From a virus: a stretch of DNA of 33,622 nt. Shown piece by piece: positions 675 through 22,012 of this stretch. The notes beneath the pieces are model-generated. The model searched no databases, had not been told where the DNA came from, and saw nothing but the letters and a program-made list of their open reading frames with translations. Positions within the stretch are counted from its first letter, which is position 1, and every line of letters begins with the position of its first letter. The translations under genes and the position numbers were made by a program. Where the stretch lies: IMG/VR virus record IMGVR_UViG_3300013131_000133, positions 1 to 33,622 of that record, one strand, 5' to 3'.

Positions 675-1682
675 TTAGGAGGCAGCGGTAAAGCGGCTCT
701 TCGACTTGACCACGACGGCCCGCTTGGAGTTCATTAGCTTTGCAGCATAATAAGCTTTATAACCAGCTTTGACCGTTTGGTTAAGGATGTCCGATTTATC
801 GGCCTGAGTCAGTACGGTGACCTTCGGGCTGAAGGGGGAATCTCCGGAGAGCTTCACCACGCCGAACGCATTCTCACCCAGCACGATAGTGCTGTAGATC
901 GAACCAGCGGCGGAGTAGGTCCCCTCGGTAGTTCCCTCAATCCACGGATTCGTGTGCTCGATGATACGGAGACCGTAAAAAGTCCCCAGCTCACCAGCGT
1001 ACAGCGAACCCACGCCGCTCGTCGGGTTACGATAGACCGAGTTTAAGAAGTCGGTATCGCGGAACAGGTCGCGCGCCACCTGAGGCGGCACGAGAGCCGT
1101 GAACTTCCCGTTGAGGGGGTTGGATTTGTTGGCCTTAAGTTCCGTGGATGCATCAAGCAGATCCTCGGCATCAATGAAGGCGGCGGACGCGGCTGCGGCA
1201 TCGACCGCAGCGAAGTTCGCCAAACCCTGTGCGTAACGCTTTTTGGTGCTGTTGCCAGCAACGTCCGTTCCAGAGATCAGTTCTGCGCGGCTAAGATTGT
1301 CGGCTTTCAAGGCCGCATCTTCGCCTAGCAATTTTACGCCCTCTTGCAAAACGTTGAAGAGGCTCAGGTTCGACAATAAGTCGGACACATTGAGGGCTTC
1401 GCCGTATTGCGTGAGACTCACCTCAACGCTGTTGAGGCCGAGCTCGCGGAACGTGCTGATCGGGGTTCCTTCGGTTAAAGTCTGCACCTCGGACGCATCC
1501 GCCGTGCCGTTGAACTGAAAGAATTTTACGGTCTTTGAACCGAGATTCTTCGGCAGGTCAACCTGCTGGGCGAGCGTGTTGAGACGCAGGGTTTCACTAA
1601 TACGATCAATCAACTGCTTCGACAGAACGGGCTGAAAATAATTCCCGAGCGAAGCAGGATTGGTCAGTTTCATCTGTGCCAT
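675..1682 (-). CDS. Major capsid protein, N4-gp56 family
   Basis: A 335-aa protein with the layout of the N4-gp56 family of HK97-fold major capsid proteins: an N-terminal helical segment (LSKQLIDRISETLRLN), the conserved LTEGT followed by a short loop (about residues 68-73), a TQYGEALNVSDL motif (about 91-102), a long helix with the GEDAALKADN core, an ISGTD turn, and a C-terminal domain with LYAGELGTFYGLRIIE and ENAFGVVKLSG. Length is near the family norm. It assembles the icosahedral shell. The upstream scaffold-like gene ends 6 bp before; AGGAG lies 11 bases before the ATG. A strong hairpin follows the stop codon. Family assignment is from motif pattern, not a database search. Confidence 0.9.
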   Translation of the reverse strand: MAQMKLTNPASLGNYFQPVLSKQLIDRISETLRLNTLAQQVDLPKNLGSKTVKFFQFNGTADASEVQTLTEGTPISTFRELGLNSVEVSLTQYGEALNVSDLLSNLSLFNVLQEGVKLLGEDAALKADNLSRAELISGTDVAGNSTKKRYAQGLANFAAVDAAAASAAFIDAEDLLDASTELKANKSNPLNGKFTALVPPQVARDLFRDTDFLNSVYRNPTSGVGSLYAGELGTFYGLRIIEHTNPWIEGTTEGTYSAAGSIYSTIVLGENAFGVVKLSGDSPFSPKVTVLTQADKSDILNQTVKAGYKAYYAAKLMNSKRAVVVKSKSRFTAAS

Positions 1683-2779: not shown

Positions 2780-3133
2780 TTAAGGGCTATACCTTTCAAA
2801 TAAGGAAGACACGCCCTCAACGTCTCCCTTCAGGGAAATTTCATCGTCAATCTTTTCGGCTTTCATCCACTCAATCACAGCGAGTGCCTCACGAAAGCCA
2901 ACGACCCTGCCAGCATCGTGAGCAGAACCGCCTGTAGTGCAGGCTGCGATAGCGCGCCGCTCAATGGTTTGACCCAGCAAAATCCAAAGTTTCCTGCCAG
3001 ACGGAGAGCCGAGAAATCGGGATAGCTCTCCGGAGTCCTCGGGTGTCCAATCGGGTACGCCTCCTGTTTTGACATGGCGATGCAGATCTAGTGCCAGCTT
3101 GAGTGCTTGCAACTTATTCCTGATCCAAGTCAC
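2780..3133 (-). CDS. Hypothetical protein between portal and scaffold, 117 aa
   Basis: The GTG at 3133 overlaps the portal stop codon (GTGA), which supports translational coupling and this start. The protein is mixed alpha/beta and soluble, with a basic N-terminal helix (RNKLQALKLALDLHRHVK), a SGRKLWILLG strand/helix, and a C-terminal helix VVGFREALAVIEWMKAEK. No catalytic motif is recognised. Small proteins at this place in N4-type capsid phages are widespread but mostly uncharacterised; a head-assembly role is possible. Confidence 0.65.
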   Translation of the reverse strand: MTWIRNKLQALKLALDLHRHVKTGGVPDWTPEDSGELSRFLGSPSGRKLWILLGQTIERRAIAACTTGGSAHDAGRVVGFREALAVIEWMKAEKIDDEISLKGDVEGVSSLFERYSP

Positions 3134-4959
3134 ATGGCCCCCATGGTGGTGGAGTTACCTTGGGCAAGCTGGGCTTCCTTCTGCTTGGCGAGCTCGCGGA
3201 TCTGTTTGCGAAGGGCCCGCTCCGTGTTCTTGTCCCGAAGGCCAAGGTACTGGAGGTGGGCTTCCAGATGCTGCGCGTAGAGCTGCTGGGCCTGAGGCAA
3301 TCCCCCGCCCATCTGCTCGAGCTGTTGGATGCGGTTGAGCAGGACCTGAATGTGGACGAGGTGGTCGTCGGAAGCGTCCACGGATGCGGGCACGCCCTGC
3401 TCCATGACCAGATTCTCCATCGACTGCTCCTCGCCCTGCGAAAGCTGGCGGGTGGCGGGATCAAGCACCAGCTTGGTAGCCAAGGAAGGATCATCGGTCT
3501 CAAGGACCGAGCGAACCAGACCGACTTGGTCAACAATTTGGTTACCCTGAAAGAGCTGCATCCGCGCCACCGCCTTTTGAAACTGAACCGCCTTGTTCAC
3601 CCCGTCCGCGCTGCCGCTGGGCATCACGTCGTAGTGATCCCCGATGGCATGTTCCGGTAGCGACCTGTAGCTGTTGGCATAAAGATAATTAAGTTCCTTG
3701 CGGGCGAACTGGCAAAGGACCGCGTACGCCTGCCTGTAAACCCTGCCGAGGCTCAGCCTGAAAATCCGCGCCCGCAAATCCGTGCTCTGGCCCATCATGG
3801 CCCCGATCTGGGAAACCTCGGTGGCCGTGCGGGCGTTCTTGGAGTTCTGCTGCTGGACCAGACCAAAGTCGGGCATGGAGGTCAGATACTCCGCAATCAT
3901 GCGCTGGTTGATCATTTCCTGATCGAAGCTGATCGGCGGCTGCGGCATGGGAACCGGAGCCACGCCCACGGGCAGGATGGTGGCGGGACCAAAGCGAAGA
4001 TTGTTGGTGTTGGGAATGTCCTGCTCGCAACGGAAGAGCGGGCGATTGTAAAGGGTCATCGCGTCCGCTTTTTCGTTAAGCAGTTTGCAAAGGAAAGCCT
4101 CAAACGGCGCAACCATCTCGCAGATCCCGCGACTGGAATAGATCCCCTTGTCCTTGATCTCGGTGAAGAACGAGACAAACGGAACCTCCCCATGCTTGTA
4201 GGGAAGTTCAAAGGACGGGCGAATATCGTGCTCAGGTGCAACGGGCGAGAACGTGTGGACCATGATCTTGCCGTCAGCCGTCCGCTCATACACCTCCCAC
4301 ACGACCACCTGATCGGACTCCGTCCCTACGGTGATTCCCTCGCGGCGGAACTTGGTGTCCTCGAAAGTGGTGGCGCGCGCGCCCTCAGACTCCCTGCCCT
4401 TGATCTTGGGCAGGATCTCCTGATCGTAGAGATCGTTGGCGCGGTAGGCATCCATGCTCATTTGCATGACGTGGCAGATGCGCTCCACCTTGGAGAGGTC
4501 GGTGGTGTAGTAGGGTAAAATGATGTTGATCGGATCGATGGCATCGAAGTGGACGGTCTTCTTGTCCTGATTCCAACTGATCTTCAGATAGCCCAACCCC
4601 TGCGTCAGGGTGTGGTCGATGGAGGTCAGCACCTCCTGCTCAAAGTTGGAACGCTGCTTGATCTGGTGATCGAACCAGATGCTCATCTGGCGAGCCAAAG
4701 CCTCGTCGGCTTGGTCGTTGATCGGGATGAAGGTGGCGGCAAGTTCGTTGCCGTAGACCTGCTGGAAATAAAAGGGCTTGAGCTTGTTGATCAGCGAGTC
4801 GGCCAGCGGGTAGTGGAGGTCGGCCTGCCAAGGAAGTTTCTTCTTTCGGCGAAGCCCGCCATGCCGCATCTCATACCAAAGACGCTGCCGCTCCTCCCAC
4901 GAGGTGCGGGCCCTCACGTCCTCCATCAGTAATCGGTATAGTTCGTCGCGTTCCTTCAT
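3130..4959 (-). CDS. Portal protein (head-tail connector)
   Basis: A 609-aa protein of the long podovirus portal type. It opens with a helical N-terminus (ERDELYRLLMEDVRART, then EERQRLWYEMRHGG), has the conserved early block with LHYPLADSLINKLKPFYF, a central beta-rich wing domain (VVVWEVYERTADGKIMVH), an IYSSRGICEMVAPFEAFLCK stem helix region, and a Gln-rich coiled C-terminus (residues about 540-600) typical of portal barrel extensions. It would form the dodecameric ring at one capsid vertex through which DNA enters and leaves. GAGGAGG is placed well before the ATG, and the start overlaps the upstream lipoprotein stop (ATGA). The C-terminus overlaps the next gene by four bases. Confidence 0.85.
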   Translation of the reverse strand: MKERDELYRLLMEDVRARTSWEERQRLWYEMRHGGLRRKKKLPWQADLHYPLADSLINKLKPFYFQQVYGNELAATFIPINDQADEALARQMSIWFDHQIKQRSNFEQEVLTSIDHTLTQGLGYLKISWNQDKKTVHFDAIDPINIILPYYTTDLSKVERICHVMQMSMDAYRANDLYDQEILPKIKGRESEGARATTFEDTKFRREGITVGTESDQVVVWEVYERTADGKIMVHTFSPVAPEHDIRPSFELPYKHGEVPFVSFFTEIKDKGIYSSRGICEMVAPFEAFLCKLLNEKADAMTLYNRPLFRCEQDIPNTNNLRFGPATILPVGVAPVPMPQPPISFDQEMINQRMIAEYLTSMPDFGLVQQQNSKNARTATEVSQIGAMMGQSTDLRARIFRLSLGRVYRQAYAVLCQFARKELNYLYANSYRSLPEHAIGDHYDVMPSGSADGVNKAVQFQKAVARMQLFQGNQIVDQVGLVRSVLETDDPSLATKLVLDPATRQLSQGEEQSMENLVMEQGVPASVDASDDHLVHIQVLLNRIQQLEQMGGGLPQAQQLYAQHLEAHLQYLGLRDKNTERALRKQIRELAKQKEAQLAQGNSTTMGAM

Positions 4960-5843: not shown

Positions 5844-7271
5844 TTAGCCTCCAGCGAAGATCCCCACGTCCTCAAAGAACTCCCGTTCCGCGACAACGTG
5901 TGGCAAGTACTCTTCGTTACTCTGCGATGTAATGTCGGTTTGAAACTCCGTCAACACCCCAGATATCGGAACGGCCCCGCACACCCCCGCCACCGCATCG
6001 GCTCGGTCCGGAGACGAGGCCCCGCGCTTCCGCATCTCGTCCTTGGGCTCCAGCCCGAGCCTACCGGATGAGTTGACCCGCACCCTCCTGCCGCAGAGCT
6101 GGGCATCCATCACGTCATCCTTGGGTAGAATGACCTGCTCCTTTTCGACTAGCCTTGCCAGCTCCCACCAGATCTCCGAGCCCCTGTTCATGTAGGATGG
6201 GTTGCGGGACTTGGCCCCGAAGTTGAAGCGGTGGATGTGCCACCCCTGCTCGCTCATGCGGTCATTCATGGGCTTGCCCAGTCCGCCATCGTCAGCCCAC
6301 ACGTTATCGGCCTTAACGCCCGCAGACTTCAGCTCGTTGATGGCGCGGCCAACGGTGGCCATGGTATTGGCACTCGACCAAGCTATCGGCTGCTGAACTT
6401 GATTCCCCCTGCGGATGGCTATCACGGTTTCGTCGCCCCCGCCTCCCCAGTCGATAAATGCGTAGGGCTGGCTGGTTAGGGGCTGGACATTGGCATCCCT
6501 GAGTTTCCTTAGTTTTTCCAGCGTCAGAACGGTGGAGCCGTCCCCCTCTGATATGAACTCGGAAAAGATCATGGACCGCACCAAGGGGTGATCCATGCCG
6601 TATTCGTCGATCTGGTCCTGAATCCAGTTGGTCTTGGACAGGTGATCGCAGTCGTAGGACGTGACGGAATGCTTTTCCCATTTGCTTTTGGGGCTCAGGA
6701 AAAGCTGGGCGAATCTTGAATCGATCCCTCCGGTGGAGCTCATTGCCAGCCACGCGGTGGGCTGACAACGCTCCGCTGCGTGCCATATCCCTTCTGGGAT
6801 AGACTTGGCTTCGTCGAATATCAGAAGGAGGTTTTCATTGTGCCAGCCCTCAAACTTGTTGGGCTCATCGGTGCTGAACCCAATCGCCCTAGATCCATTC
6901 GGGGCTATTAGGTCGGTGGAGTTTACGGCCCACCCATTCAGGACAGACCCCCATTGGTTGATCTGCTGCCATAGCTGATCGCGGACTTGTCTGTAAACAC
7001 CTGCCGTTGTAACGACTTGTGAGTTTGGAAATCTACTGCACCACCAGATCAGCACGGGAGCAGCCACATGGGAGGTCTTGCCGCTTCCGTTAGCCGCTTT
7101 GAGGCATACCCTCTTTTTGGTAGCTAGGTCATGGAGGACCTTCTTTTGCCAGTCGTAAAATGAGATCTTAAAAAAGTGGGAGCAGAAGGCCGAAGGATCG
7201 GTCTTAAACGCCGCTATAAGCTTAGGATCGAGGGCTTGCCCGCCTCCGGTCTGTCGTTTTGCTTGGGCCAT
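5844..7271 (-). CDS. terL: Terminase large subunit (packaging ATPase-nuclease)
   Basis: 475 aa with both enzymatic halves. The ATPase domain has a Walker A motif AANGSGKTS (residues 59-67) and a Walker B LLLIFDEAKS (148-157) with the catalytic Glu after the Asp, then a coupling MSSTGG segment. The RNase H-like nuclease domain has its first acidic strand AFIDWGGGGDET (271-282), a second at VWADDGG (324-330) and a C-terminal DVMDAQLCGRR with further acidic residues. It would cut concatemeric DNA and pump it through the portal. The start is the ATG at 7271, which lacks an obvious Shine-Dalgarno. The 128 bp between it and the 84-aa gene upstream hold no convincing gene. Confidence 0.92.
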   Translation of the reverse strand: MAQAKRQTGGGQALDPKLIAAFKTDPSAFCSHFFKISFYDWQKKVLHDLATKKRVCLKAANGSGKTSHVAAPVLIWWCSRFPNSQVVTTAGVYRQVRDQLWQQINQWGSVLNGWAVNSTDLIAPNGSRAIGFSTDEPNKFEGWHNENLLLIFDEAKSIPEGIWHAAERCQPTAWLAMSSTGGIDSRFAQLFLSPKSKWEKHSVTSYDCDHLSKTNWIQDQIDEYGMDHPLVRSMIFSEFISEGDGSTVLTLEKLRKLRDANVQPLTSQPYAFIDWGGGGDETVIAIRRGNQVQQPIAWSSANTMATVGRAINELKSAGVKADNVWADDGGLGKPMNDRMSEQGWHIHRFNFGAKSRNPSYMNRGSEIWWELARLVEKEQVILPKDDVMDAQLCGRRVRVNSSGRLGLEPKDEMRKRGASSPDRADAVAGVCGAVPISGVLTEFQTDITSQSNEEYLPHVVAEREFFEDVGIFAGG

Positions 7272-7399: not shown

Positions 7400-7654
7400 T
7401 CAGAGGTGCTTGTCCAATAAGCCCAGAACGCCCAGCCAGTTTTCCTTTGTCTTAAAGTAGATTTCCATGGTGGTTTCACCACCAGCACCGCCCCCGCTCT
7501 CGATCAGATAAACATCTATGCCGTAAAGGCTCGTGTCATCCTTATAGGTGTAGTACCCCTTAAAATCTATTTGGTTAAAACAGAACATCACAAAGCCGTC
7601 CACGTAGACTTTGATTCGGCCATTGTAGATCTTGAGGTCGTAGGTGTGCTTCAT
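7400..7654 (-). CDS. Hypothetical 84-aa beta-rich protein between terminase subunits
   Basis: ATG 7654 overlaps the stop of the TerS-like gene (ATGA). The protein is predicted beta-rich, with alternating hydrophobic and polar residues and many aromatics (YDLKIYNGRIKVYVDGFVMF and YYTYKDDTSLYGIDVYL), a Gly-rich turn (SGGGAGGET) and a final helix. It recalls a small jelly-roll or carbohydrate-binding fold, but no family is recognised. Codon use fits the neighbouring genes. Confidence 0.6.
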   Translation of the reverse strand: MKHTYDLKIYNGRIKVYVDGFVMFCFNQIDFKGYYTYKDDTSLYGIDVYLIESGGGAGGETTMEIYFKTKENWLGVLGLLDKHL

Positions 7655-8427
7655 GTTTGGGCGAAAGGATCGGATTCATTGGGGATGGGGGGTGGGACAG
7701 ATAGTGTCCGCGCCTTGCGGGAACGACTCTGACGGGGGGTCTTTTTAGGTGAAATTTTTTTAAGAAGGGGGGATACAGTTAGTGGCTGGGGGGAGGGGGG
7801 GGTGTGGCCCCCCTCTGGTTCATCGGATCGGGTCGTCGCCTTGCCCTCGTCGCCTATGTCAGTCGCCGCCCCAACCGGAACCGCTCTGACCTCTAGCGTG
7901 GTAGTGGATATAGCCATCTGGTCCTCTGTTGGTGAGGTGGTAGTGACTGTTGAATCGCTGGCCAACTGCGCGAGAATCGTTGAGCTGAGCGCGCCGCCCA
8001 TCGCCGATCCCATCGCGATCTCTCGGGCCCTGCTGAAGTACTCGGGCTGGCAACGCTCGAGCAACCAACCGGAGGCTTGCCACGTTCCTTTTTGCGATGC
8101 GTCTGTGATTCGTTTAAGGTGTGTTCTAACGAACGCCGCTCTCCCCGTCTCAGCCGCTTTCCCCCACTCCGGAATCTCCCTGATCCATTTATACAGCGCG
8201 GTCTCGCTAATGCTCAGCGCGTGCGCGGCGTGTTTGATTGGCATCCCGAGCTCCATGAGCTCGCGGAACGCGGCCAGCAACGCGGGCACGGGCCGCGCCA
8301 GCGTGCCGCACTCCGCGCGGGCCCTGATGCCCGCCTCGATCACCGCGCCCGCCGCGCCCCCAATATCAAGGGCATTCCCCCCGACTGACTTTGACTTGGG
8401 GTCGGCAACTATGGTCGGTTTCCCCAT
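7651..8427 (-). CDS. Probable terminase small subunit, HTH DNA-binding protein
   Basis: 258 aa from ATG 8427, which has GAGG upstream; the longer TTG start at 8466 has no ribosome-binding site. Residues about 45-140 hold a helix-turn-helix (GMPIKHAAHALSISETALYK) followed by WIREIPEWGKAAETG and a region ending in ASGWLLERCQPEYF, the pattern of small terminase / phage HTH proteins that recognise the packaging site. The last about 90 residues are low-complexity, rich in Ser, Thr, Pro and Lys, ending in a basic tail. First gene of the leftward packaging-capsid operon, next to the long control region. A transcription regulator is the main alternative. Confidence 0.7.
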   Translation of the reverse strand: MGKPTIVADPKSKSVGGNALDIGGAAGAVIEAGIRARAECGTLARPVPALLAAFRELMELGMPIKHAAHALSISETALYKWIREIPEWGKAAETGRAAFVRTHLKRITDASQKGTWQASGWLLERCQPEYFSRAREIAMGSAMGGALSSTILAQLASDSTVTTTSPTEDQMAISTTTLEVRAVPVGAATDIGDEGKATTRSDEPEGGHTPPSPQPLTVSPLLKKISPKKTPRQSRSRKARTLSVPPPIPNESDPFAQT

Positions 8428-8517
8428 GGGCGAGCCTCGATCTATCCCCGCCCCCTCCCTTGTCAAATTTTTGCGGTAAGATTGCGCGCGTCCGGTCCAG
8501 CGTTTCGCGCCACTCTC

Positions 8518-8589
8518 TTAATATATATATAATATAATATATATATAAGAATGTATTAAGAATGTAAGAATGTATTAAGAAAGAATGTA
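8518..8589. repeat. TA-rich tract with four iteron-like AAGAATGTA repeats
   Basis: Positions 8518-8546 are almost pure alternating T/A. They run into four copies of AAGAATGTA starting at 8547, 8558, 8566 and 8581; the longer unit AAGAATGTATTAAG occurs twice (8547-8560, 8566-8579). An easily melted tract beside direct repeats is the usual make-up of an iteron-type origin or an initiator binding array. No initiator gene is adjacent; the phage has its own DnaB-type helicase at 16731-18035. Confidence 0.55.
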
Positions 8590-8845
8590 GTAAAAAAAGA
8601 GTTTAACTTAGTAAGAAAGTTATGAGCCCCGCTTGACTTTCCCTCTGTTCGGGCGATAGTTCCCATAGGACATGAATTGTCCGATCCCCCTCAAGGGCTA
8701 AAACGGGGTAGTGTGGTTCGCCAAAACAATAAACGACAATGGCCCGTAATCGCGCGCAAATGGCCCTAGAACGCGTCTTACCCCCCTATCCGCTGTCCCT
8801 TATCTAGCGGCGTGTGGCAACGCGTACAAACGCGTTTAAATGCGA

Positions 8846-8960: not shown

Positions 8961-8982
8961 TAGTTGGTCCAACCCCCAACTA
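8961..8982 (+). promoter_or_regulatory. Leader hairpin just before the first plus-strand gene
   Basis: TAGTTGG (8961-8967) and CCAACTA (8976-8982) form a perfect 7-bp stem with an 8-base loop; a nested GTTGG/CCAAC alternative exists inside. It ends two bases before the AGGAGG ribosome-binding site of the 45-aa gene, so it could affect translation of the operon's first gene or stabilise the 5' end of the transcript. Confidence 0.4.
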
Positions 8983-8992
8983 CAGGAGGCAC

Positions 8993-9130
8993 ATGAACGA
9001 TACATTATACGCGGTCCACACCATCGTCTCCGCTTCATTCCTGACGTTGGCCACGCTCGGAGCGTGGTCTCTCGTCTGGCGCGAGGCGCGTAGCAAGCAC
9101 AATAACCAACACAAAAACAGGAGGCACTAA
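8993..9130 (+). CDS. 45-aa single-span membrane protein
   Basis: First gene of the rightward operon. ATG 8993 follows ACAGGAGGCAC, the ribosome-binding leader used through this operon. One hydrophobic segment (IVSASFLTLATLGAWSLVW, about residues 11-29) is followed by a short basic tail (REARSKHNNQHKNRRH), which by the positive-inside rule would lie in the cytoplasm. No family recognised. A membrane anchor or small toxin/holin-like role is possible but unsupported. Confidence 0.6.
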   Translation: MNDTLYAVHTIVSASFLTLATLGAWSLVWREARSKHNNQHKNRRH

Positions 9131-9142
9131 ACCATGAACAGC
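9091..9142 (+). repeat. Repeated operon leader, copy 1 (related copies 9355-9400 and 10251-10296)
   Basis: The stretch TAGCAAGCACAATAACCAAC, an A-rich run, then ACAGGAGGCACTAAACC and ATGAACAGC recurs before three successive genes: at 9091-9142, 9355-9400 and 10251-10296. The copies share AAGCA, ACCAAC, AGGAGGCAC and the first codons ATG AAC AGC. This goes beyond a plain Shine-Dalgarno match and points to a duplicated translation-start cassette. Confidence 0.65.
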
Positions 9143-9352
9143 ACCGAACGGAAACAATTCGAGGCAGACCTCTTCCACACTTGGCAGAGGCGAGCCACAG
9201 CCGCAGAGGCCGAGAACATCCGGCTAAGGAAGATCGTCCAGACCATCGCCCCAATCCTTGGCCAGCATCTTGATGAGACGCTGGCCAGACTGGAGCGGGA
9301 CGAGCGGCAACAGGCAAACCCCCATTGGTCGCACCGATTCCACAATCCGTGA
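9134..9352 (+). CDS. 72-aa coiled-coil protein
   Basis: ATG 9134 follows AGGAGGCACTAAACC. Almost wholly helical: FEADLFHTWQRRATAAEAEN, then IRLRKIVQTIAPILGQHLDE and TLARLERDERQQANP, with heptad-like spacing of Leu/Ile and Ala, so probably a coiled coil or helical hairpin. No transmembrane segment and no cysteines. Lies three bases after the membrane protein gene and before the helical partner of the MoxR-type ATPase; could be an adaptor for that module. No family recognised. Confidence 0.6.
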   Translation: MNSTERKQFEADLFHTWQRRATAAEAENIRLRKIVQTIAPILGQHLDETLARLERDERQQANPHWSHRFHNP

Positions 9353-9392
9353 GGCCAAGCAGACACACCAACCAAAACAGGAGGCACTAAAC

Positions 9393-10253
9393 ATGAACAG
9401 CAACAGCAACATCACCGACTCGGCGTTCATCGCCGATCTCACCGTCCGCTCCCCCGTCAGCGGCAGGTGTGATAACGATCTGACGGCTGAGGTGGAGGCG
9501 AAGCACAAGCTCAGCGGCGGTGGCCGTTGGGTGAAGGCGATCTACTCCAAGGAGCACCTCGCTGAGGTGCGGACGATCATCTACCGCATCCGCGAGAACT
9601 TCATCCGGTACTCGCTCCCGTGGCGCGTGGGTCAGTCGATCATCACGTCCACGGCGTACCCGCGATTCATCGCCGACCATAATCGGTTGGTGAACGAGGC
9701 GGAGAAAGCGTTCGACAAATTGCGCGACCAGTTCGACGCGATTCTGTCGGACGCGGCGCAGAGGTTGAACGGCACGTTCGACCGCTCCGACTATCCGGAT
9801 TCGGCGGACCAGTTCCGCTCGCAGTTCGGGGTCGAGCTCGAGTTGGACCCGCTCCCCTCACCGGACCGCTTGCCCGACGATCTCCGCGACAAGGCGGAGT
9901 TCGCGCTCGGCAAGCGCATCCGCGCGGCACGTTCGGCCCTCCTCGAGAGGCTGAGCGAGGCCCTGCGCGGCGTGGCCGAGGTGCTCGCTGACCGGAAGAA
10001 AATCTTCCGCAACAGCACCATCGAGGCCGCGCGTCAGGCCCTCGCGGACGCTGACGCTCTCAACGTGGGCAACGATCCCGACATTGCGCGTGCCGTGAGC
10101 AACGCGCGCCAGTCGCTGGATTCGTTCCTCGCCGAGGGCAAGGAGGACGAGCTCCGCCACGAGCCGCAGGTGCGGGTCACCGCCGCATCGGAGGCACTCA
10201 AGGCGGTTAACGCGTTCGAACAAATCGCGGCATCGATTGCCGCGAGTAAGTAG
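9393..10253 (+). CDS. Helical protein of the MoxR-vWA operon (DUF3150-like by context)
   Basis: 286 aa from ATG 9393, with AGGAGGCAC upstream; an upstream extension in the same frame overlaps the previous gene and is not needed. Mostly alpha-helical and charged. Features: a TIIYRIRENFIRYSLPW segment (about residues 62-78), a helical AFDKLRDQFDAILSDAAQRL (about 110-130), an FDRSDYPDSADQFRSQFGVE turn, and a DPLPSPDRLP loop before further helices. Proteins with the same YSLPW / LNG-F-ADYP / FPLP pattern accompany AAA+ ATPase and vWA genes in other phages and mobile elements; DUF3150 is the nearest named group I can offer, and it is tentative. Probably the substrate adaptor or third subunit of the complex formed by the next two gene products. 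Confidence 0.65.
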   Translation: MNSNSNITDSAFIADLTVRSPVSGRCDNDLTAEVEAKHKLSGGGRWVKAIYSKEHLAEVRTIIYRIRENFIRYSLPWRVGQSIITSTAYPRFIADHNRLVNEAEKAFDKLRDQFDAILSDAAQRLNGTFDRSDYPDSADQFRSQFGVELELDPLPSPDRLPDDLRDKAEFALGKRIRAARSALLERLSEALRGVAEVLADRKKIFRNSTIEAARQALADADALNVGNDPDIARAVSNARQSLDSFLAEGKEDELRHEPQVRVTAASEALKAVNAFEQIAASIAASK

Positions 10254-10286
10254 CAAGCACACTAACCAACATAGGAGGCACATAAA

Positions 10287-11345
10287 ATGAACAGCAAAAA
10301 CAAGACAACGGAATCCAGCAAAGCAAACAGCGTCTCGACGGCGCGCCTGACCAGCGTGCTCGCGGACGCATTCAAGTCCACGTTCTCCAAGCTACTCCTC
10401 GTGGGGTCGCCCGGAGTTGGCAAGACCGCGCTCGTGGTCTCCGCGTGGAAACAAATCTGCGAGAGCATCGGGGGCGACCCCGAGGTGATCGTCGAGAACA
10501 TCAGCACCGCCGCTCCGGAGGACCTTCGCGGTCTTCCGGTGGTGGTCAACGGGGAGGCCAAGTTCTCCCCGCTGACGTTCATCCGGAAGCTGACCACGGC
10601 CACCAAGCCGACCCTCTGCTTCCTCGATGATCTCGGGTGCGCGCCCACGTCAGTACAGGCGGCACTCCTGCACGTGATCCACGGCGGGCACACGGAGGCT
10701 GGCAAGATCAGTCCCCACGTCCGCTTCATCGGCGCGACGAATGATCGCACGCATCGGGCGGGAGTGGGCGGCATCATCGCCCCCCTCGCTGGCCGATTCA
10801 CGACGATCCTTAACGTGGTCCCCGATCCGGAGACGTGGAGCCTCTGGGCCCTCGGGGACGGCATCCCCGCCGAGGTGGTCAGCGCGGTGCGGTTCCGCCC
10901 CGAGCTCTTCAACTCGGAGGAAGTGCCCGCAGGGATCACCAAGTTCGCGTGCCCCCGTTCGTGGGAACACGCGGGTCGGCTCGTCGCGAGCGGCTCCAAG
11001 GGGCTCGAGCTCCTGACGGGCACGCTCGGGGAAGAGGCGGGCCTCTTTCTCCACGGGTTCCTCGGCGTGTTCGCCACGCTGAGCGGGCTACCGGAGAAGG
11101 TCCTGCTCGATCCCAAGACGGCCCCCGTTCCGGACAAGTACGAACAGCGGTGGGCGTTGGCTGGCGCGCTCGTCTCCAAGGCGAGCCCCTCCACGTTCCC
11201 GCAGATCAGCGTGTACTCGGAGCGGCTCGGGCCCGAGCTCGAGGCGTTCACGACCAAGGGCGCGATCACCAAGGACGCGAGCATCACCGCGAGCAAGGAC
11301 TTCATCAAGTGGTCCATCACTCGCGGCAAGGAAGTGCTCGGGTAA
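10287..11345 (+). CDS. MoxR/CobS-like AAA+ ATPase
   Basis: 352 aa. Walker A GSPGVGKTA (residues 40-48), Walker B TLCFLDDLG (109-117), sensor-1 FIGATNDR (147-154), and AGRF with a likely arginine finger at 170, in the order expected of the MoxR family (helix-2-insert AAA+ proteins). MoxR ATPases act as chaperones that remodel protein complexes and are nearly always paired with a vWA-domain protein, here the next gene. The second half is helical with no recognised extra domain. The Walker B reads DD rather than the commoner DE, so the catalytic acid is Asp117-region; this occurs in some MoxR relatives. Shares the operon leader (ATAGGAGGCACATAAA) and lies 33 bp after the helical partner gene. 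Confidence 0.88.
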   Translation: MNSKNKTTESSKANSVSTARLTSVLADAFKSTFSKLLLVGSPGVGKTALVVSAWKQICESIGGDPEVIVENISTAAPEDLRGLPVVVNGEAKFSPLTFIRKLTTATKPTLCFLDDLGCAPTSVQAALLHVIHGGHTEAGKISPHVRFIGATNDRTHRAGVGGIIAPLAGRFTTILNVVPDPETWSLWALGDGIPAEVVSAVRFRPELFNSEEVPAGITKFACPRSWEHAGRLVASGSKGLELLTGTLGEEAGLFLHGFLGVFATLSGLPEKVLLDPKTAPVPDKYEQRWALAGALVSKASPSTFPQISVYSERLGPELEAFTTKGAITKDASITASKDFIKWSITRGKEVLG

Positions 11346-11376
11346 TCCGACAACTCAACCGAAAGGAGGCACGACC

Positions 11377-12498
11377 ATGAACATCGACTTGAAAAAAATC
11401 AGCGGCAACCTGACGCGTTCGCGCGTCCGGTTGCAACTCGACCACCCGTTCTGGGCATCGATCTCGGGGCGGCTCGAGCACTCGATCTCCACGAGCGTGG
11501 AGACGGCGGCAACGGACGGCACGTGGGTCAAGTATAACCCCGACTTCCTCGCCAAGCTGAGCGTGCCCGAGACCACGTTCCTCATCGCCCACGAGGCGGG
11601 GCACGTGGCCCTCGGTCATCACCTCAGGTGCGGGGACCGCGATCCGGAGCTCTGGAACATCGCGTGTGACTACGCGGTGAACTGGCTCCTCCAGCAGGAC
11701 GGGTTCGTCCTGCCGCAGGGCGCGCTTATCGATCCGCAGTATAAGGACTGCTCGAGCGAGGCGATCTACGAGCGGATCAAGAACCAGCCCAACGCGCGCA
11801 AGCGTCCGTCGTTTGGCAAGGTGCAGACTCCGACCAAGGGGGACGGCCAGCCGTTGTCCCCCGCCGAGATCAAGGAGAAGGAGACCGAGCTCAAGGCGGC
11901 GGTCACCTCCGCCGAGACTGCCGCTCGGCTCGCGGGCAAGTTGCCCGCCGAGCTCGCGCGTCAACTCGCCGAGGCCCGCCGCCCGCGCATCCCGTGGACC
12001 GATATCCTCCGGACGCGCGTGGTCAGTCTCTCCCGCGAGGACTACAGCTACCGGAGACCTTCCCGCCGCTCGTCGGGCGAGATCGTGCTCCCGTGTCTGC
12101 GGACCGAGCGGCCCCCGAAAGTGGCGGTGCTCGTGGACACATCCGGTTCGGTATCCCAATCCGATCTGGATCAGGCACTCGCCGAGATCGGCGAGGCGGC
12201 GGCGATCACGCGGCTCCCCGTGGTGGTCGGCGCGGTGGACACTAGGTTCCACGGGTGGAGCGAGTACGAGGAAGGCGGCAAGGCCCCGCACTTGCGCGGC
12301 GGTGGCGGGACCGACTTCTCGGACGCGTTCGACTCGCTCGTCGAGGAGGAGGCATCCGATATCGGGCTCGTCGTGTTCATCACGGACGGGCTCACCAGCG
12401 GGTGGGGACGTTGCCCCGATCAGGACCTGATCTGGGTGATCTCCCCCTCCGATACCAGCATCAAGCCGCCGTTCGGCGAGGTGCTGTATCCCAACTGA
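11377..12498 (+). CDS. HExxH metallopeptidase fused to vWA domain (DUF2201-like)
   Basis: 373 aa in two parts. The N-terminal part has FLIAHEAGHVALGHHLR with HEAGH at residues 72-76, a zincin signature, followed by ELWNIACDYAVN, which is characteristic of the putative metallopeptidase domain of DUF2201 proteins. After a charged linker (about 150-205) comes a von Willebrand A domain with an intact MIDAS: DTSGS at 254-258, Thr312 in GGGTDFSDAF and Asp337 in FITDG. The fold would bind Mg2+ and a protein ligand. The preceding MoxR-like ATPase is its expected partner, so the pair probably recognises, unfolds or cleaves a protein target. Both active-site sets are complete. The gene follows AAGGAGGCACGACC. 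Confidence 0.88.
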   Translation: MNIDLKKISGNLTRSRVRLQLDHPFWASISGRLEHSISTSVETAATDGTWVKYNPDFLAKLSVPETTFLIAHEAGHVALGHHLRCGDRDPELWNIACDYAVNWLLQQDGFVLPQGALIDPQYKDCSSEAIYERIKNQPNARKRPSFGKVQTPTKGDGQPLSPAEIKEKETELKAAVTSAETAARLAGKLPAELARQLAEARRPRIPWTDILRTRVVSLSREDYSYRRPSRRSSGEIVLPCLRTERPPKVAVLVDTSGSVSQSDLDQALAEIGEAAAITRLPVVVGAVDTRFHGWSEYEEGGKAPHLRGGGGTDFSDAFDSLVEEEASDIGLVVFITDGLTSGWGRCPDQDLIWVISPSDTSIKPPFGEVLYPN

Positions 12499-12509
12499 AG
12501 GAGGCAACC

Positions 12510-12914
12510 ATGAACAAGTTCAAAAATAAACGCCCCACCACGGGGCTCCGGAGGGCCATCGATCACCTGATCTCCATCGGGTATCGGCCCATCAACCCTC
12601 AGCATCTCGAGAGCGTGCCGCTCTCCGAGTGGACGCGATTCGATCTCGCGTTCGGGGATGCGGCGGATATCCGGTGCAGAATCTACAGGCACGCGCGCTC
12701 CGAGAACTGGCACACCAAGTGGGTCAGCTTCAAGGCGCGGCGGTCCGGAGTGTGGAGCTCAAAGGCTCCAGACCTTTTGGTGATGAGCCCGCCGTCACCA
12801 CTAAAGGAGGCAACCACCAGCGATGACATCAAGTTCAAGTTCACCAGCGTCACGCCCTACTCGAAGTTAGAGCGGGCCCACGCGAAGACCTTGGCTTGGT
12901 ACATCTCACAATAA
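12510..12914 (+). CDS. Hypothetical 134-aa protein containing an embedded ribosome-binding leader
   Basis: ATG 12510 follows AAGGAGGCAACC. Basic and mixed alpha/beta (LRRAIDHLISIGYRPINPQH, WTRFDLAFGDAADIRCRIY, WVSFKARRSGVWSS), then a Pro/Ser linker (MSPPSPLKEATTSDD) and a helical tail (LERAHAKTLAWYISQ). The linker codons KEATT are encoded by AAGGAGGCAACCA (12804-12816), a 13-base exact copy of the leader at 12498-12510. This suggests an in-frame join of two formerly separate genes. No family recognised. Confidence 0.65.
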   Translation: MNKFKNKRPTTGLRRAIDHLISIGYRPINPQHLESVPLSEWTRFDLAFGDAADIRCRIYRHARSENWHTKWVSFKARRSGVWSSKAPDLLVMSPPSPLKEATTSDDIKFKFTSVTPYSKLERAHAKTLAWYISQ

Positions 12915-12926
12915 AGGAGGCAGACA

Positions 12927-13793
12927 ATGAGCGAACAACTACAACTGACATTGAAAAACCTGAAGAAGATTCTGCCGCGCGAGGCGTACGAACGTGTCGC
13001 GGCGGCGGACATTGCGTACCGACTCGGCGGCGTTGAGCACAACGTCGGCGAGTGGGATAAGCGCACCGAGGAATCCCAGTTTAAAAACTGGGTGAGCAAG
13101 GCGGGCGTGGAGCACGCCGAGAAGTTCGGACTGACCAAGCTGAAGGCGGAGTACTGGGAGTGCCACTCGGAGCTGGTCCCCCAAGATTTTTACGCGTTCA
13201 GGGTGGCACGCCACCACGACCAGCGCAATGGTCGCGGAAGGTTGTCCCACTTCTACTTCGACGCGCGCCCGCACAACTGGAGGGGGCTCGCGCTGGAGGC
13301 CCCGCTCCAATGCACCGAGCTGATCATTCCCAAGGCCAACATCCACTTGGCAGGTCCGGTGTGGGCCGAGGGATTGCACCAGCTAAAGCTTGCGTACGAT
13401 AAGTGGAGGTCCCATCCGGATCGCGAGCGGTGCAGGAAGCGGTCACTCGCCCGCAGGAAGTTCATCAAACGGATCGGCAACCGACTCACGGCGAGCTCCT
13501 TGGTGTTGGACTTCTTTAGGAATCAGGCATCGGAGGTGTCTGAGCTGACCAACTCGACGGCCAACTCGTTCAGCGTAGCCGACAAGTACCGCATCGGCGA
13601 GTTCAACCAAGTTAATTATGATGAGAGGGTGGAGAGGCTCACATTTGCAGAGCAGACTCGCGGCATCGAGGCGCGGCTTCACCTTCGACTCAACTTAAAA
13701 AAGAGTTATGATCGCAAGGTGTGGCGCGAGTTGTCCGCGCTCATCCGGAAGACTGGGCTACTCAACAACGGAAAGGAGGTAATCGGCAAATGA
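12927..13793 (+). CDS. Hypothetical 288-aa protein of the MoxR-vWA operon
   Basis: ATG 12927 follows AAAGGAGGCAGACA. A soluble, basic, mostly helical protein: N-terminal helices (LKNLKKILPREAYERVAAAD), a central part with AFRVARHHDQRNGRGRLSHF and FYFDARPHNWRG, and long C-terminal helices (HLRLNLKKSYDRKVWREL). Several His, Asp and Arg residues cluster in the middle, but no known catalytic motif is clear. It overlaps the next gene by four bases (ATGA). Position suggests it acts with, or is a target of, the MoxR-vWA pair; that is inference. Confidence 0.65.
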   Translation: MSEQLQLTLKNLKKILPREAYERVAAADIAYRLGGVEHNVGEWDKRTEESQFKNWVSKAGVEHAEKFGLTKLKAEYWECHSELVPQDFYAFRVARHHDQRNGRGRLSHFYFDARPHNWRGLALEAPLQCTELIIPKANIHLAGPVWAEGLHQLKLAYDKWRSHPDRERCRKRSLARRKFIKRIGNRLTASSLVLDFFRNQASEVSELTNSTANSFSVADKYRIGEFNQVNYDERVERLTFAEQTRGIEARLHLRLNLKKSYDRKVWRELSALIRKTGLLNNGKEVIGK

Positions 13794-14044
13794 TGTGGGA
13801 CGACAGCGACAGGATGGTCTGGTTCAAGACCGCCGTCATCGTGGTGCTGTTCGCGCTCGGCTTCGCGAACGCGCTACGGGCGGACGATCTGGACGACTCG
13901 GGTGGTATCTGGGCTGTCCGCGATCTGTCCGCAGGAACTGCTACCCAGTTCTACGCGGTGGATGCGGACGAGAGCGGAGGCATCTGGGCCATCCGGAATC
14001 TCTCCACGGGGGAGCCTACAAAGTTCCTCTGGATTGCGAGATAA
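13790..14044 (+). CDS. Small exported protein with two 25-residue repeats
   Basis: 84 aa from ATG 13790, coupled to the previous stop (ATGA) and preceded by AAGGAGGT. Residues 10-31 look like a signal peptide or membrane anchor (VWFKTAVIVVLFALGFANAL, then RAD, a plausible signal peptidase site). The exported part is two copies of one unit: residues 36-57 (SGGIWAVRDLSAGT...) and 61-82 (SGGIWAIRNLSTGE...), spaced 25 residues apart. The copies have diverged at DNA level, so the repeat is old and kept at protein level. Each unit would form a small beta hairpin. Last gene before the terminator. No family recognised. Confidence 0.7.
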   Translation: MMWDDSDRMVWFKTAVIVVLFALGFANALRADDLDDSGGIWAVRDLSAGTATQFYAVDADESGGIWAIRNLSTGEPTKFLWIAR

Positions 14045-14054
14045 TCAGAACAAG

Positions 14055-14087
14055 GGGCGGGCGGGAGCAATCCCGTCCGCCCTTTTT
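14055..14087 (+). terminator. Rho-independent terminator of the plus-strand operon
   Basis: Arms GGGCGGGCGGGA (14055-14066) and TCCCGTCCGCCC (14071-14082) pair over 12 bp with one G-T pair, loop GCAA, followed by TTTTT (14083-14087). It starts 11 bp after the last plus-strand stop and touches the 3' end of the convergent oxygenase gene. Confidence 0.85.
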
Positions 14088-14643
14088 ATTTCCAAGCGGG
14101 TCCGGTAAACCACGCGACCAAGGACCAACGCTCTCCCCACCACGGGGCCTTCGCTCTGTGCTTGAGGTAGCTCGGGAAGAGCGTGCCCGCGCCCTGCATC
14201 TTGGAGTTGTCCAGCCCTTGGTGATCGTAGCCGTCGAGCTGTAGCCCGCCCATCACGTACTCCCTCGGGGAGCTCAACTGCACCACGAGCGTGGCCTTCC
14301 TCGGCGAGCCCGAGTTCGTATCGAAGTGCCTCCTGAACCATTGGAGCGGGCGATACCGCAGGACCTGCAAACTTTCCATGCCCGCGATATCGGCTTGCAG
14401 GAACGCGTTGGCGTTGTCCATCGCCTTCCACATTTTATCCTTCAACCAATCCCATCTCCCGTCCCCCTCGTTCAGCCACCCGTAATCGCACGTTCTGGTC
14501 CACGAGCGGACGCGCTTGCCGCTCATGCTCAGGGTGGTCGCGGGCTCCATCCTATCCTTCGAAAGCGTACGCACTTTAATGCACTCGTCGGGGGACAGGA
14601 CGTGCGGCACGCAGATCCCAGCGAGCGGCCTTTGCTTGATCAT
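14086..14643 (-). CDS. 2-oxoglutarate/Fe(II)-dependent oxygenase (prolyl-4-hydroxylase-like)
   Basis: 185 aa from ATG 14643, which overlaps the upstream stop (ATGA) and has GAGGTGA before it; the frame extends upstream to 14763 in the previous gene. The fold shows an N-terminal ISQ-type start (LSPDECIKVRTL), then the double-stranded beta-helix core: RYRPLQWFRRHFDT with the iron ligands His106 and Asp108, VVQLSSPREYVMGGLQL, GTLFPSYLKHRA with the third ligand His162, and Arg172 in ERWSLVAWF as the 2-oxoglutarate anchor. Related enzymes in phages hydroxylate proteins or nucleic acids using O2 and 2-oxoglutarate; the substrate here is unknown. Last gene of the leftward early operon. Confidence 0.82.
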   Translation of the reverse strand: MIKQRPLAGICVPHVLSPDECIKVRTLSKDRMEPATTLSMSGKRVRSWTRTCDYGWLNEGDGRWDWLKDKMWKAMDNANAFLQADIAGMESLQVLRYRPLQWFRRHFDTNSGSPRKATLVVQLSSPREYVMGGLQLDGYDHQGLDNSKMQGAGTLFPSYLKHRAKAPWWGERWSLVAWFTGPAWK

Positions 14644-15134
14644 TCCAGCGTCACCTCGGCGGTGGCCGCTGGCAACTCCCGCCCCCGCTTCCCCGCAGCC
14701 TGAGAGACAACCCAAGGATAATCCTTCATGGTGAAATCCGAGATCGGGATCTCGATCATCCACTCCCGATCACTCGCACTTCCCGCCCTCACCTCCGCCC
14801 TCCCCCCGAAACTCACGCGGTATCCCGACTCCCCGACCCGTATCCACCCCCACTTATCGGTCCAGCCCACCACCAGAAACACGCCGCTGACAATTCGCTT
14901 TGCAAATAAAAGCGACTGCCATTTGCGGCTGCTGTAATGGAGGGTGGCATAGTGGTCGTGAGTGTTGTGCCGTTGTCGGCACTCGCAAGCGGACAGCTTA
15001 GTTCCCATCGGAACGAGGTAGTCGAACGGCCAGAACTGCGGGGTCTGAATCGGCTGGCCAGTTCCCATATCCTCCGCAAACAACCGGACAAGCTTCTCCT
15101 CGTCCGCGATGTTCTGCTTGGTCTCATACGCCAT
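14640..15134 (-). CDS. PDDEXK-like nuclease-fold protein, altered active site
   Basis: 164 aa from ATG 15134. The core pattern WPFDYLVP (Asp38), SACECRQRHN (Glu51-Cys-Arg53), HYATLHYSSRKWQSLLFAK and GVFLVVGWTDKWGWIRV resembles phage PDDEXK-fold proteins, in which a D...ExK motif is followed by a strand, a KW helix and a VVRWTD strand. Here the lysine of ExK is replaced by Arg, as in some family members and in inactive ones. The C-terminal part (WMIEIPISDFTM) is a short beta addition. Overlaps the upstream gene by 11 bp. Could be a nuclease, a modified-DNA reader or a dead relative. Confidence 0.5.
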   Translation of the reverse strand: MAYETKQNIADEEKLVRLFAEDMGTGQPIQTPQFWPFDYLVPMGTKLSACECRQRHNTHDHYATLHYSSRKWQSLLFAKRIVSGVFLVVGWTDKWGWIRVGESGYRVSFGGRAEVRAGSASDREWMIEIPISDFTMKDYPWVVSQAAGKRGRELPAATAEVTLE

Positions 15135-15411
15135 ACTTCTCGATGAACGCTGGCGTTCCCTCCCCCACCCACGCCCCTTGGATGTTGTAGCTGAACCACT
15201 CGATGGCATCCTCGGTGGGGTTCTCGGACCCGCTCTTCTTAAACTGGCGGGCGAGGATGCGGATCACCTCGACGGTGTCATAAACAATGAACGGGGGACG
15301 GCCATGCTGGCGGGCCACGCCGATCACCGCATCGTTGAATCCCTTCATCTTGATCAGGGTCTCGTCGGAGTGATCATCCTCCGGAGGTGTGGGATACTTC
15401 CCGTTCTTCAC
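15124..15411 (-). CDS. Conserved phage protein with GAWVGEGTP motif, 95 aa
   Basis: Contains the linear pattern FNDAVIGVARQHGRPPFIVY, then an acidic helix (EDAIEWFSYNIQGAWVGEGTP) that recurs in many unrelated phages as a short conserved protein of unknown function. The start is taken as GTG 15411, which gives a full-length protein but has no clear Shine-Dalgarno; an internal ATG (Met22) is the alternative. Acidic and probably alpha/beta. Confidence 0.75.
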   Translation of the reverse strand: MKNGKYPTPPEDDHSDETLIKMKGFNDAVIGVARQHGRPPFIVYDTVEVIRILARQFKKSGSENPTEDAIEWFSYNIQGAWVGEGTPAFIEKYGV

Positions 15412-15432
15412 TTGTGTCGCAATGTGTTGCTG

Positions 15433-16026
15433 TTACGCACGTTGGTCAAGGGTGAAGAGCATCGTTTCCCCCTCAGGTCCGGTGGTGAATCGCAGCTTGT
15501 AGCCGCGCTCCTCGATCCACCGGAAGATCTCGCCCTCGTTGGGATGCCCCCTCCATACCTCCACCGACAGGATGGTAGGCTGAGAGTGGAGGCCCGAGAG
15601 CACCGACCACTCCTGCCCCTCGTTGTCTAGGACGAGGCAGTCGATGGTCCCGTCATCAATCTCGCTGAACTTCATCACGTTCACTTCGATGTCCTCCGCG
15701 CTGACAGGCGTGGGGCTCCATGTGTTGGCTAGGTAAGACGATCCCATGTTCATCCGGAACTTGGCGCGCCCCGCCTGAGCCCCGATTGCCGCCCGCACCA
15801 GCTTGGCTTTGGGCATCCTGAGAGCCGCCATCTCGGCGAGATGGGGGTTGGGCTCAACCAAGACCATGCGGTCCGAGAGGTTGTGGTCATACACCTTCGG
15901 GGCTGCGGCGATGTCAAGCGGCCCGACTCCGCACTCGCAGAAGGTGCGGAACTTCTGGCCGCTGACTTGCATGAGATATGCAATGTCAAAATGCCAACGG
16001 ATGTGGCGGGCTTGCTGGATATTCAT
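15433..16026 (-). CDS. FkbM-type SAM-dependent methyltransferase
   Basis: 197 aa from ATG 16026, which overlaps the stop of the 36-aa membrane gene (ATGA); a GTG two codons upstream is possible. The Rossmann fold shows motif I TFCECGVGPLD (about residues 29-37), the acidic end of strand 2 MVLVEPNPHLAEM (55-66), an AAIGAQAG strand, the FkbM-like IDCLVLDNEGQEWSVLSGL and a following ILSVEVWRGHPNE, then a C-terminal YKLRFT. FkbM enzymes O-methylate sugars and other small molecules. Here the target could be a glycan on the virion or host surface; the glycosyltransferase at 23163-24290 would be a natural partner, by inference. Confidence 0.75.
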   Translation of the reverse strand: MNIQQARHIRWHFDIAYLMQVSGQKFRTFCECGVGPLDIAAAPKVYDHNLSDRMVLVEPNPHLAEMAALRMPKAKLVRAAIGAQAGRAKFRMNMGSSYLANTWSPTPVSAEDIEVNVMKFSEIDDGTIDCLVLDNEGQEWSVLSGLHSQPTILSVEVWRGHPNEGEIFRWIEERGYKLRFTTGPEGETMLFTLDQRA

Positions 16027-16133
16027 GTGCACTTCCCCAAGTTATGGAGCAGCCAGACCACTCCGGTGACTAGGTACATCCACCATGGCAACTGGAACTG
16101 GTGGATGAGGATGATGGCGATGAGCAGGGTCAT
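16023..16133 (-). CDS. 36-aa hydrophobic membrane peptide
   Basis: ATG 16133 follows AAAGGAAAACGAAC and overlaps the preceding stop; its own stop overlaps the methyltransferase start. Two short hydrophobic stretches (MTLLIAIILIHQFQ and WWMYLVTGVVWLLHNL) separated by LPW, so probably one kinked or two short membrane helices. No homology recognised. Confidence 0.6.
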   Translation of the reverse strand: MTLLIAIILIHQFQLPWWMYLVTGVVWLLHNLGKCT

Positions 16134-21733: not shown

Positions 21734-22012
21734 ATGAGCACAATCCATCGCAGGCCCCCGCAGACGCGCGACCCGAAGAAGCCGCTGGCGGCAAACATAG
21801 GATTCAGGGCCACCGCAGAGCTACGCAAGCAGCTACTGGACCTGTCCAACATGACGGGCTGGAGCTGCAATCATATCGTGGTGGACTTGGTACAGGCTGG
21901 ACTGGACCAGATCATGTATCCCGAGAGGCCCCTGCATAAGACTATTTTAATGGGCCGAACCTACTGTCAGTCGTTAAAGGAGGTCGCAGACCATGGCAAA
22001 AATAAAGGCTAG
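21734..22012 (+). CDS. Ribbon-helix-helix-like DNA-binding protein, 92 aa
   Basis: After a basic proline-rich N-terminus the stretch NIGFRATAELRKQLLDLSNM and TGWSCNHIVVDLVQAGLDQI has the strand-helix-turn-helix pattern of Arc/MetJ-type repressors (residues about 21-60): a hydrophobic/polar beta strand, a first helix ELRKQLLDL, a turn and a second helix HIVVDLVQAGL. The C-terminal 30 residues are of unknown role and overlap the integrase start by 20 bp. Likely regulates its own promoter and the divergent operon. Confidence 0.65.
   Translation: MSTIHRRPPQTRDPKKPLAANIGFRATAELRKQLLDLSNMTGWSCNHIVVDLVQAGLDQIMYPERPLHKTILMGRTYCQSLKEVADHGKNKG

Follow-up and report, generated by a model that had tools for sequence, protein, structure and literature searches.

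Background

In the NorQ-NorD, CbbQ-CbbO and RavA-ViaA systems, an AAA+ ATPase of the MoxR superclade is paired with a protein carrying a vWA domain and its metal ion-dependent adhesion site (MIDAS), and the clients of these pairs are metabolic enzymes. To our knowledge, the vWA partners of these systems have no zincin domain and none of them is accompanied by DUF3150. A MoxR-superclade ATPase and a vWA protein equipped with a MIDAS were also found in the window, that is, the whole stretch of DNA analysed here, a viral record of 33,622 bases (IMG/VR record IMGVR_UViG_3300013131_000133), where they belong to a module of three genes encoding a DUF3150-like protein (P0001, D in the gene orders given below), the ATPase (P0002, M) and a DUF2201 protein in which a zincin peptidase domain is fused to the vWA domain (P0003, V).

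Genes gp24 and gp25 of phage N4, which belong to the Schitoviridae core (phrog_1297 and phrog_1314), encode the same AAA+ ATPase and zincin-vWA protein and lie adjacent or nearly so in the middle or replication region. In N4-like phages both count as core genes, with the annotations unknown or AAA ATPase for the first and vWFA for the second, and they are transcribed with the middle class (PMC4193335; PMC2784036). Records of N4-like phages differ from the window in that no DUF3150-like protein was detectable in them. A survey of 2021 described a MoxR-vWA pair with an N-terminal metallopeptidase in jumbo phages and proposed a function in virion assembly with peptide processing (PMC7824862). The two architectures and their pairing are those of the window, whereas the passages of the survey that were consulted describe no third partner and the gene context of the window is different. 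Both homologues are closely linked in the window, as in these phages, and the ATPase/zincin-vWA pair is already known, as phrog_1297/phrog_1314, as N4 gp24/gp25 and as the jumbo-phage pair of 2021. The preliminary description of this locus, made from the sequence, knew of no defined role for such a set in a phage; this was not borne out, since the pair is that of N4 (PMC4193335) and the virion-assembly proposal of 2021 applies to it (PMC7824862). On the function of N4 gp24/gp25, the literature gave core-gene status, the middle class and the 2021 prediction, and no experiment was found there. The identity of the third partner and its linkage to the pair appear to be new.

Systems made of a MoxR-type ATPase, a vWA protein and a third protein are known in bacterial conflict, where the third proteins are VMAP, iSTAND, FtsH or beta-propeller proteins (PMC7159879). 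They resemble the window in combining an ATPase and a vWA protein with a dedicated third protein. They differ from it in the nature of the third part, DUF3150-like in the window, in the fusion of the peptidase to the vWA domain and in the carriage of the module by phages and plasmids. Pfam and PADLOC scans of the trio revealed no VMAP, iSTAND, FtsH, beta-propeller or effector domain, and the trio was not assigned to these ternary conflict systems.

Results and discussion

Three conserved proteins

On balance, we consider it probable that the three proteins constitute one ATP-driven protein-remodelling protease, made of an AAA+ ring, a vWA-peptidase co-chaperone and a dedicated DUF3150-like subunit, which would act on a client in the replication phase. 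The observed basis of this proposal consists of the family assignments, of catalytic and metal-binding residues that are all in place, and of a tight linkage between the three genes that recurs across many unrelated replicons. The addition of DUF3150 to a pair that forms a core and unexplained gene set of N4-like phages, mislabelled as HNH endonuclease in many public records, provides a concrete putative three-protein complex. The three co-oriented open reading frames (ORFs) of the preliminary description were confirmed, and their positions are given with those of the other features in Table 1.

Table 1. Positions, strands and characteristics of the module and of other features in the window
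Feature	Position	Strand	Remarks
Major head protein	675-1682	-	Left-end head/packaging genes
Portal	3130-4959	-	Left-end head/packaging genes
Terminase large	5844-7271	-	Left-end head/packaging genes
Terminase small	7651-8466	-	Left-end head/packaging genes
Repeated Shine-Dalgarno leader of the + operon, first copy	8977..8992	+	Repeat families D2-D4, D8, D12
+ strand operon	8993-14044	+	Follows AT-rich gap
Two small ORFs, operon head	8993..9352	+	Outside conserved module
P0001 (D), DUF3150-like third subunit, 286 aa	9393..10253	+	Assigned through homologues and predicted fold
P0002 (M), MoxR-superclade AAA+ ATPase, 352 aa	10287..11345	+	PF07728; phrog_1297, N4 gp24-like; Walker B DD
P0003 (V), DUF2201 protein, 373 aa	11377..12498	+	phrog_1314, N4 gp25-like; zincin 11-232, C-terminal vWA/MIDAS 249-370
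HEAGHVALGH zinc-binding helix of P0003 (H72, E73, H76, further invariant H81)	11590..11619	+	Invariant in 128/128 homologues
DTSGS, first vWA MIDAS motif of P0003 (D254, S256, S258)	12136..12150	+	Invariant in 128/128 homologues
Three downstream ORFs of the operon	12510..14044	+	Outside conserved module
Likely intrinsic terminator of the + operon	14052..14085	+	15-bp stem, T-rich tail

Judged from its sequence, P0003 is a DUF2201 zincin-vWA protein: both Pfam domains scored above their curated cut-offs and in the expected order (PF13203, 165.2 bits for a cut-off of 23.2, E 3e-48; PF09967, 54.7 bits for a cut-off of 26.4, E 1e-14). Across 128 DUF2201 homologues, H72, E73, H76 and H81 of the zinc-binding helix and D254, S256 and S258 of the first MIDAS motif were invariant, as were N94 and D98, and the MIDAS residues T312 and D337 were present in 127 of them, in agreement with the complete HEAGH zincin and DTSGS...T...D MIDAS motifs reported earlier for this protein. 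Conservation of the HExxHxxxxH and MIDAS residues indicates that the peptidase and the vWA metal site are both under strong constraint. In the AlphaFold2 (AF2) model (predicted local distance difference test, pLDDT, 88), the vWA domain aligned to integrin-type I domains with Z up to 12.8, and Foldseek returned NorD of the NorQD complex as the top match of P0003 (E 2e-3), selecase, a mini-zincin, being also listed. NorD is the vWA partner of a MoxR-clade ATPase.

The label 'HNH endonuclease', which phrog_1314 and RefSeq give to this family, was rejected: P0003 had no HNH match in Pfam even at E 1 and is covered by PF13203 and PF09967. The family is named 'HNH endonuclease' or 'homing endonuclease' in NC_071039, NC_020849, NC_013691 and other records, and the label looks like a propagated error. 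In the literature searched, a limited collection, no paper mentions either PF13203 or DUF3150.

P0002 is classified by profile comparison as a MoxR-superclade AAA+ ATPase, matching PF07728 (AAA_5; 34.9 bits, cut-off 22), phrog_1297 (E 8e-41) and the 'N4 gp24-like protein' of LUZ7 (E 2e-13). Its score against PF07726 (AAA_3, MoxR proper) was 11.6 bits, below the cut-off of 27, and it was therefore filed under the wider MoxR superclade only. Against the PDB, the P0002 profile found midasin first (E 2.5e-38), with NorQ and CbbQ lower among other AAA+ ATPases. Walker A (G40..GK46), sensor-1 N152, arginine finger R170 and sensor-2 R224 were kept in 106-115 of 115 homologues. Walker B reads LDD instead of the usual DE; conservation holds for its first D, whereas the acidic position that follows (D115 in P0002) is occupied by E in 95 of the 115 homologues and by D in 18, namely P0002 and 17 other loci. 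The ATPase had been credited with complete Walker A, Walker B and sensor motifs, which holds for Walker A and the sensors and, with this DD qualification, for Walker B.

Direct profile searches with P0001 (Pfam, PHROGs, NCBIfam, PADLOC) gave nothing usable. The PF11348 (DUF3150) profile did not match P0001 itself, hence the name 'DUF3150-like' rather than DUF3150, but it was matched by 8 of the 19 members of the P0001 family (P0001 counted in), a family assembled from loci retrieved through P0003, with a best E value of 1.7e-9. The AF2 model of P0001 (pLDDT 94; predicted template modelling score, pTM, 0.87) compared with a named phage DUF3150 protein at a template modelling (TM) score of 0.84. 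Through these intermediates and the modelled fold, P0001 is assigned to a DUF3150-like superfamily as a distant homologue. The third protein had been described as helical; this is correct for the C-terminal bundle, whereas the small N-terminal part is predicted to be beta, giving a mixed fold. An Arc-like DNA-binding PHROG (E 0.0096) was matched weakly, as were coiled-coil or helical-bundle PDB chains, and these matches were set down to composition or common-arrangement effects. The PDB matches span mainly the helical part (156-286), and no claim of fold novelty is made. Pfam, homologue and structure comparisons of P0001 revealed no enzymatic domain of a known kind. Viral contigs scanned with P0001 alone yielded no relatives; the PF11348 profile being too narrow for genome surveys, custom profiles were used instead.

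Linkage and distribution of the three genes

The ATPase gene was found near the DUF2201 gene in 77 of 81 viral loci (80 retrieved with P0003, plus the window). An independent scan anchored on DUF3150-like proteins yielded 38 loci, 35 of which had DUF2201 within a few kb, and in the remaining three the DUF3150 gene was located at a contig edge. The view of these genes as one module, for which linkage in other phages had been put forward as the test, was thereby upheld, DUF2201 being present at every DUF3150-anchored locus with flanking sequence. The inclusion of the third protein was equally supported, since DUF3150-like genes were linked to the pair in phages, conjugative plasmids and bacterial chromosomes. 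All three genes occurred together at 73 loci, on the same strand in each of them (73/73) and with a median span of 3.2 kb. Gene order was M-D-V at 48 of these loci, M-V-D at 19 and D-M-V, as in the window, at 6. A quick tree of DUF2201, in which some rows were incomplete at contig ends, implies at least five changes of gene order and at least ten changes in the presence of DUF3150. Such repeated rearrangement with linkage kept is good evidence for joint function. In Acidicapsa, start-stop overlaps of 4 nt were observed between the three genes.

Distribution was further evaluated in bacterial genomes sampled evenly from two groups and not picked for the module, in which DUF3150-like genes proved rare. 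Among Burkholderiales, 2 of 300 genomes had a DUF3150-like gene, both about 1 kb or less from DUF2201, and among Acidobacteriota 4 of 6 strong DUF3150-like loci adjoined DUF2201. Plasmids provided DUF3150-like proteins in 44 records, mostly from Burkholderiaceae and relatives, and the two trio plasmids examined were both typed as conjugative. In a set of 50,697 phage records, 607 were matched by P0003, 379 by P0002 and 3 by P0001-like proteins, these three being phages of cyanobacteria. On the Acidicapsa chromosome, the trio is located close to genes for an SRAP protein, a Y-family polymerase-like protein and a DnaE-type polymerase (L214, 7564-18076), and a second copy (L215) adjoins a Gp157-like phage protein.

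DUF3150-like genes were found almost only beside the pair, and the pair was often found without DUF3150. This asymmetry is also what would be expected if the DUF3150-like protein were a client, matured, activated or cleaved by the pair, and the clients of MoxR-vWA pairs are in fact often encoded right next to the pair. We nevertheless regard this explanation as unlikely: the DUF3150-like protein has no known enzymatic domain that would need maturation, and the Walker B DD variant is almost confined to trio loci (17 of 18, a count that ignores relatedness), the sole exception, L076, having a weak DUF3150-like match (E 0.014) just upstream. The trio bias of this variant hints that DUF3150 affects the ATPase itself.

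Alternative proteins in the third slot

Proteins other than DUF3150 were observed with the pair. At L005, L008, L011, L021, L033, L042 and L061, a different protein of about 225 aa is encoded between the ATPase and DUF2201; members of this set are 18-25% identical to the first one, and L062, which was counted in it, looks like an unrelated ORF. On the DUF2201 tree, the pair-only phages with this protein form a clade nested among M-D-V phages, the protein taking the middle slot of DUF3150. A conserved protein of about 234 aa is encoded upstream of the ATPase at L012, L014, L016, L020, L024, L026, L032, L035 and L039, and was present in about 20 pair-only loci. Profile comparison detected no similarity of either protein to DUF3150, and they may be unrelated replacements or extremely divergent forms of it. 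DUF3150 is the most widespread putative third subunit seen, with at least one apparently unrelated family in the same slot elsewhere. As a tentative and rather doubtful extension, these loci could represent a previously undescribed class of three-part mobile-element AAA+ proteases, in which a MoxR-superclade ring and a zincin-vWA cutter would be combined with an exchangeable third subunit setting the protein to be attacked.

The same observations can be accommodated by an anti-host or counter-defence protease, which would capture and destroy or disable a host protein with the DUF3150-like protein as target adaptor, patchy presence and differing third proteins then reflecting different host targets. 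The patchiness of DUF3150 (at least ten gains or losses), its occurrence on phages and plasmids alike and the other candidate third proteins of pair-only phages, including the one encoded between the ATPase and DUF2201, are consistent with such a function. On the other hand, N4-like phages have the pair among their core genes (PMC4193335), which would be unusual for a target-specific anti-host factor, and the PADLOC scan gave no convincing match to defence models. This possibility was judged improbable.

Gene context, timing and proposed mechanism

Terminase genes were located upstream and on the opposite strand at all 25 loci where they were found, and genes for primase-helicase, DNA polymerase and exonuclease lay downstream of the module. 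As the operon opposes the packaging genes and adjoins replication genes, expression is expected early or in the middle (replication) phase. The LUZ7 pair (gp37/gp39) falls outside the published virion protein table of LIT1/LUZ7, which lists genes 52 and above (PMC3715699). Together with the middle class of the N4 genes and the plasmid and chromosome copies, terminase strand, replication neighbours and absence from the LUZ7 table make a role in the replication phase, or one directed at the host, more plausible than a purely structural role. The preliminary description had offered 'an anti-host or assembly machine'; with regard to this choice, the surrounding genes would rather suggest activity in the replication phase.

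In the mechanism that we propose, the ATPase would form a hexameric ring, by analogy with NorQ-NorD, CbbQ-CbbO and RavA-ViaA. The vWA domain of the DUF2201 protein would grip a client or adaptor through the MIDAS metal, and ATP hydrolysis would pull or rearrange the client, as MoxR-vWA systems suggest; the zincin domain of the same protein would then probably cut it. The third subunit, dedicated to this machine, would be the DUF3150-like protein, whose most likely function would be that of an adaptor or regulator, bringing in the client or gating the ATPase; that it is itself the client is less likely. Action would take place in the early or middle (replication) phase. For the copies on plasmids and chromosomes, a target in the host or in the replication complex makes better sense than a virion protein.

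Several points weigh against this three-part protease. Protease activity of P0003 is a prediction from motifs, and the third zinc ligand of its zincin domain could be either H81 or D98. Many phages have the pair without DUF3150, indicating that the third subunit is not required everywhere, and in two Acidobacteriota (L209, L210) a DUF3150-like gene lies near a larger AAA ATPase (501-527 aa) with no clear DUF2201, possibly a further variant. In jumbo phage PA5oct, 'ESI-MS/MS' is noted for the ATPase as it is for the structural proteins, which fits a virion link, and in roseophage RPP1 some virion genes are found near the gp24/gp25 homologues.

The last two observations, one of them an annotation from mass spectrometry, would be accounted for by a virion-assembly chaperone-protease, in which the pair folds and trims a structural protein, with DUF3150 serving as scaffold, chaperone or structural client. 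Such a role was proposed for the pair in the 2021 survey, where Acidianus two-tailed virus and its MoxR-vWA system provided the analogy (PMC7824862). It is difficult to reconcile with trios on conjugative plasmids and bacterial chromosomes that have no visible virion genes alongside, with terminase on the opposite strand and replication genes beside the module, or with N4 middle-gene expression and the missing pair in the LIT1/LUZ7 virion table. The position of the module opposite terminase, beside replication genes and on plasmids argues against a purely virion-assembly role, which we consider rather unlikely, and its presence on conjugative plasmids speaks against the published proposal as the whole explanation. 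A remodelling protease acting in the replication phase is retained as the preferred interpretation.

Other features of the window

An A-rich repeated leader with a strong Shine-Dalgarno sequence (ACAGGAGGCACTAAAC and variants) was found at every + strand gene, repeat families D2-D4, D8 and D12 being located ahead of the + strand genes from 8993 to 13793. A leader shared by the trio had been reported, and the repeated ribosome-binding leader is indeed present, although it is not specific to the trio and also serves the flanking + strand genes over this interval. The stem of the likely terminator is the longest of five found, in a window whose total stem count is not above that of shuffles.

The ORFs at 8993-9352 and 12510-14044 had been suggested as adaptors or targets. 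They gave no convincing family matches in Pfam or PHROGs, and about 200 other loci contained no ORF related to them, which excluded them as module members and does not bear out the suggestion. They are missing from the nearest sister phages (L002-L004), although these retain the trio and, within the reach of their contigs, the neighbouring genes for terminase, oxygenase, helicase and exonuclease.

Between the terminase genes and the + operon, an AT-rich stretch (8520-8640) contains three copies of AAGAATGTATTAAGAA or a near variant and is a possible origin or control region. Beyond the operon, a mostly - strand block includes genes for a 2-oxoglutarate (2OG) oxygenase, a DnaB-like helicase and an exonuclease. 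Just past the terminator, positions 14086-16032 encode the 2OG-Fe(II) oxygenase, conserved in L002-L004, a PDDEXK nuclease-like ORF and an FkbM-type methyltransferase. An integrase gene on the + strand (21993-22991) is embedded in the - strand block, and the phage is therefore probably temperate. Positions 25023-31739 encode a polyvalent-type protein (2238 aa) that contains LPD38 and matches a DarB-like PHROG in part.

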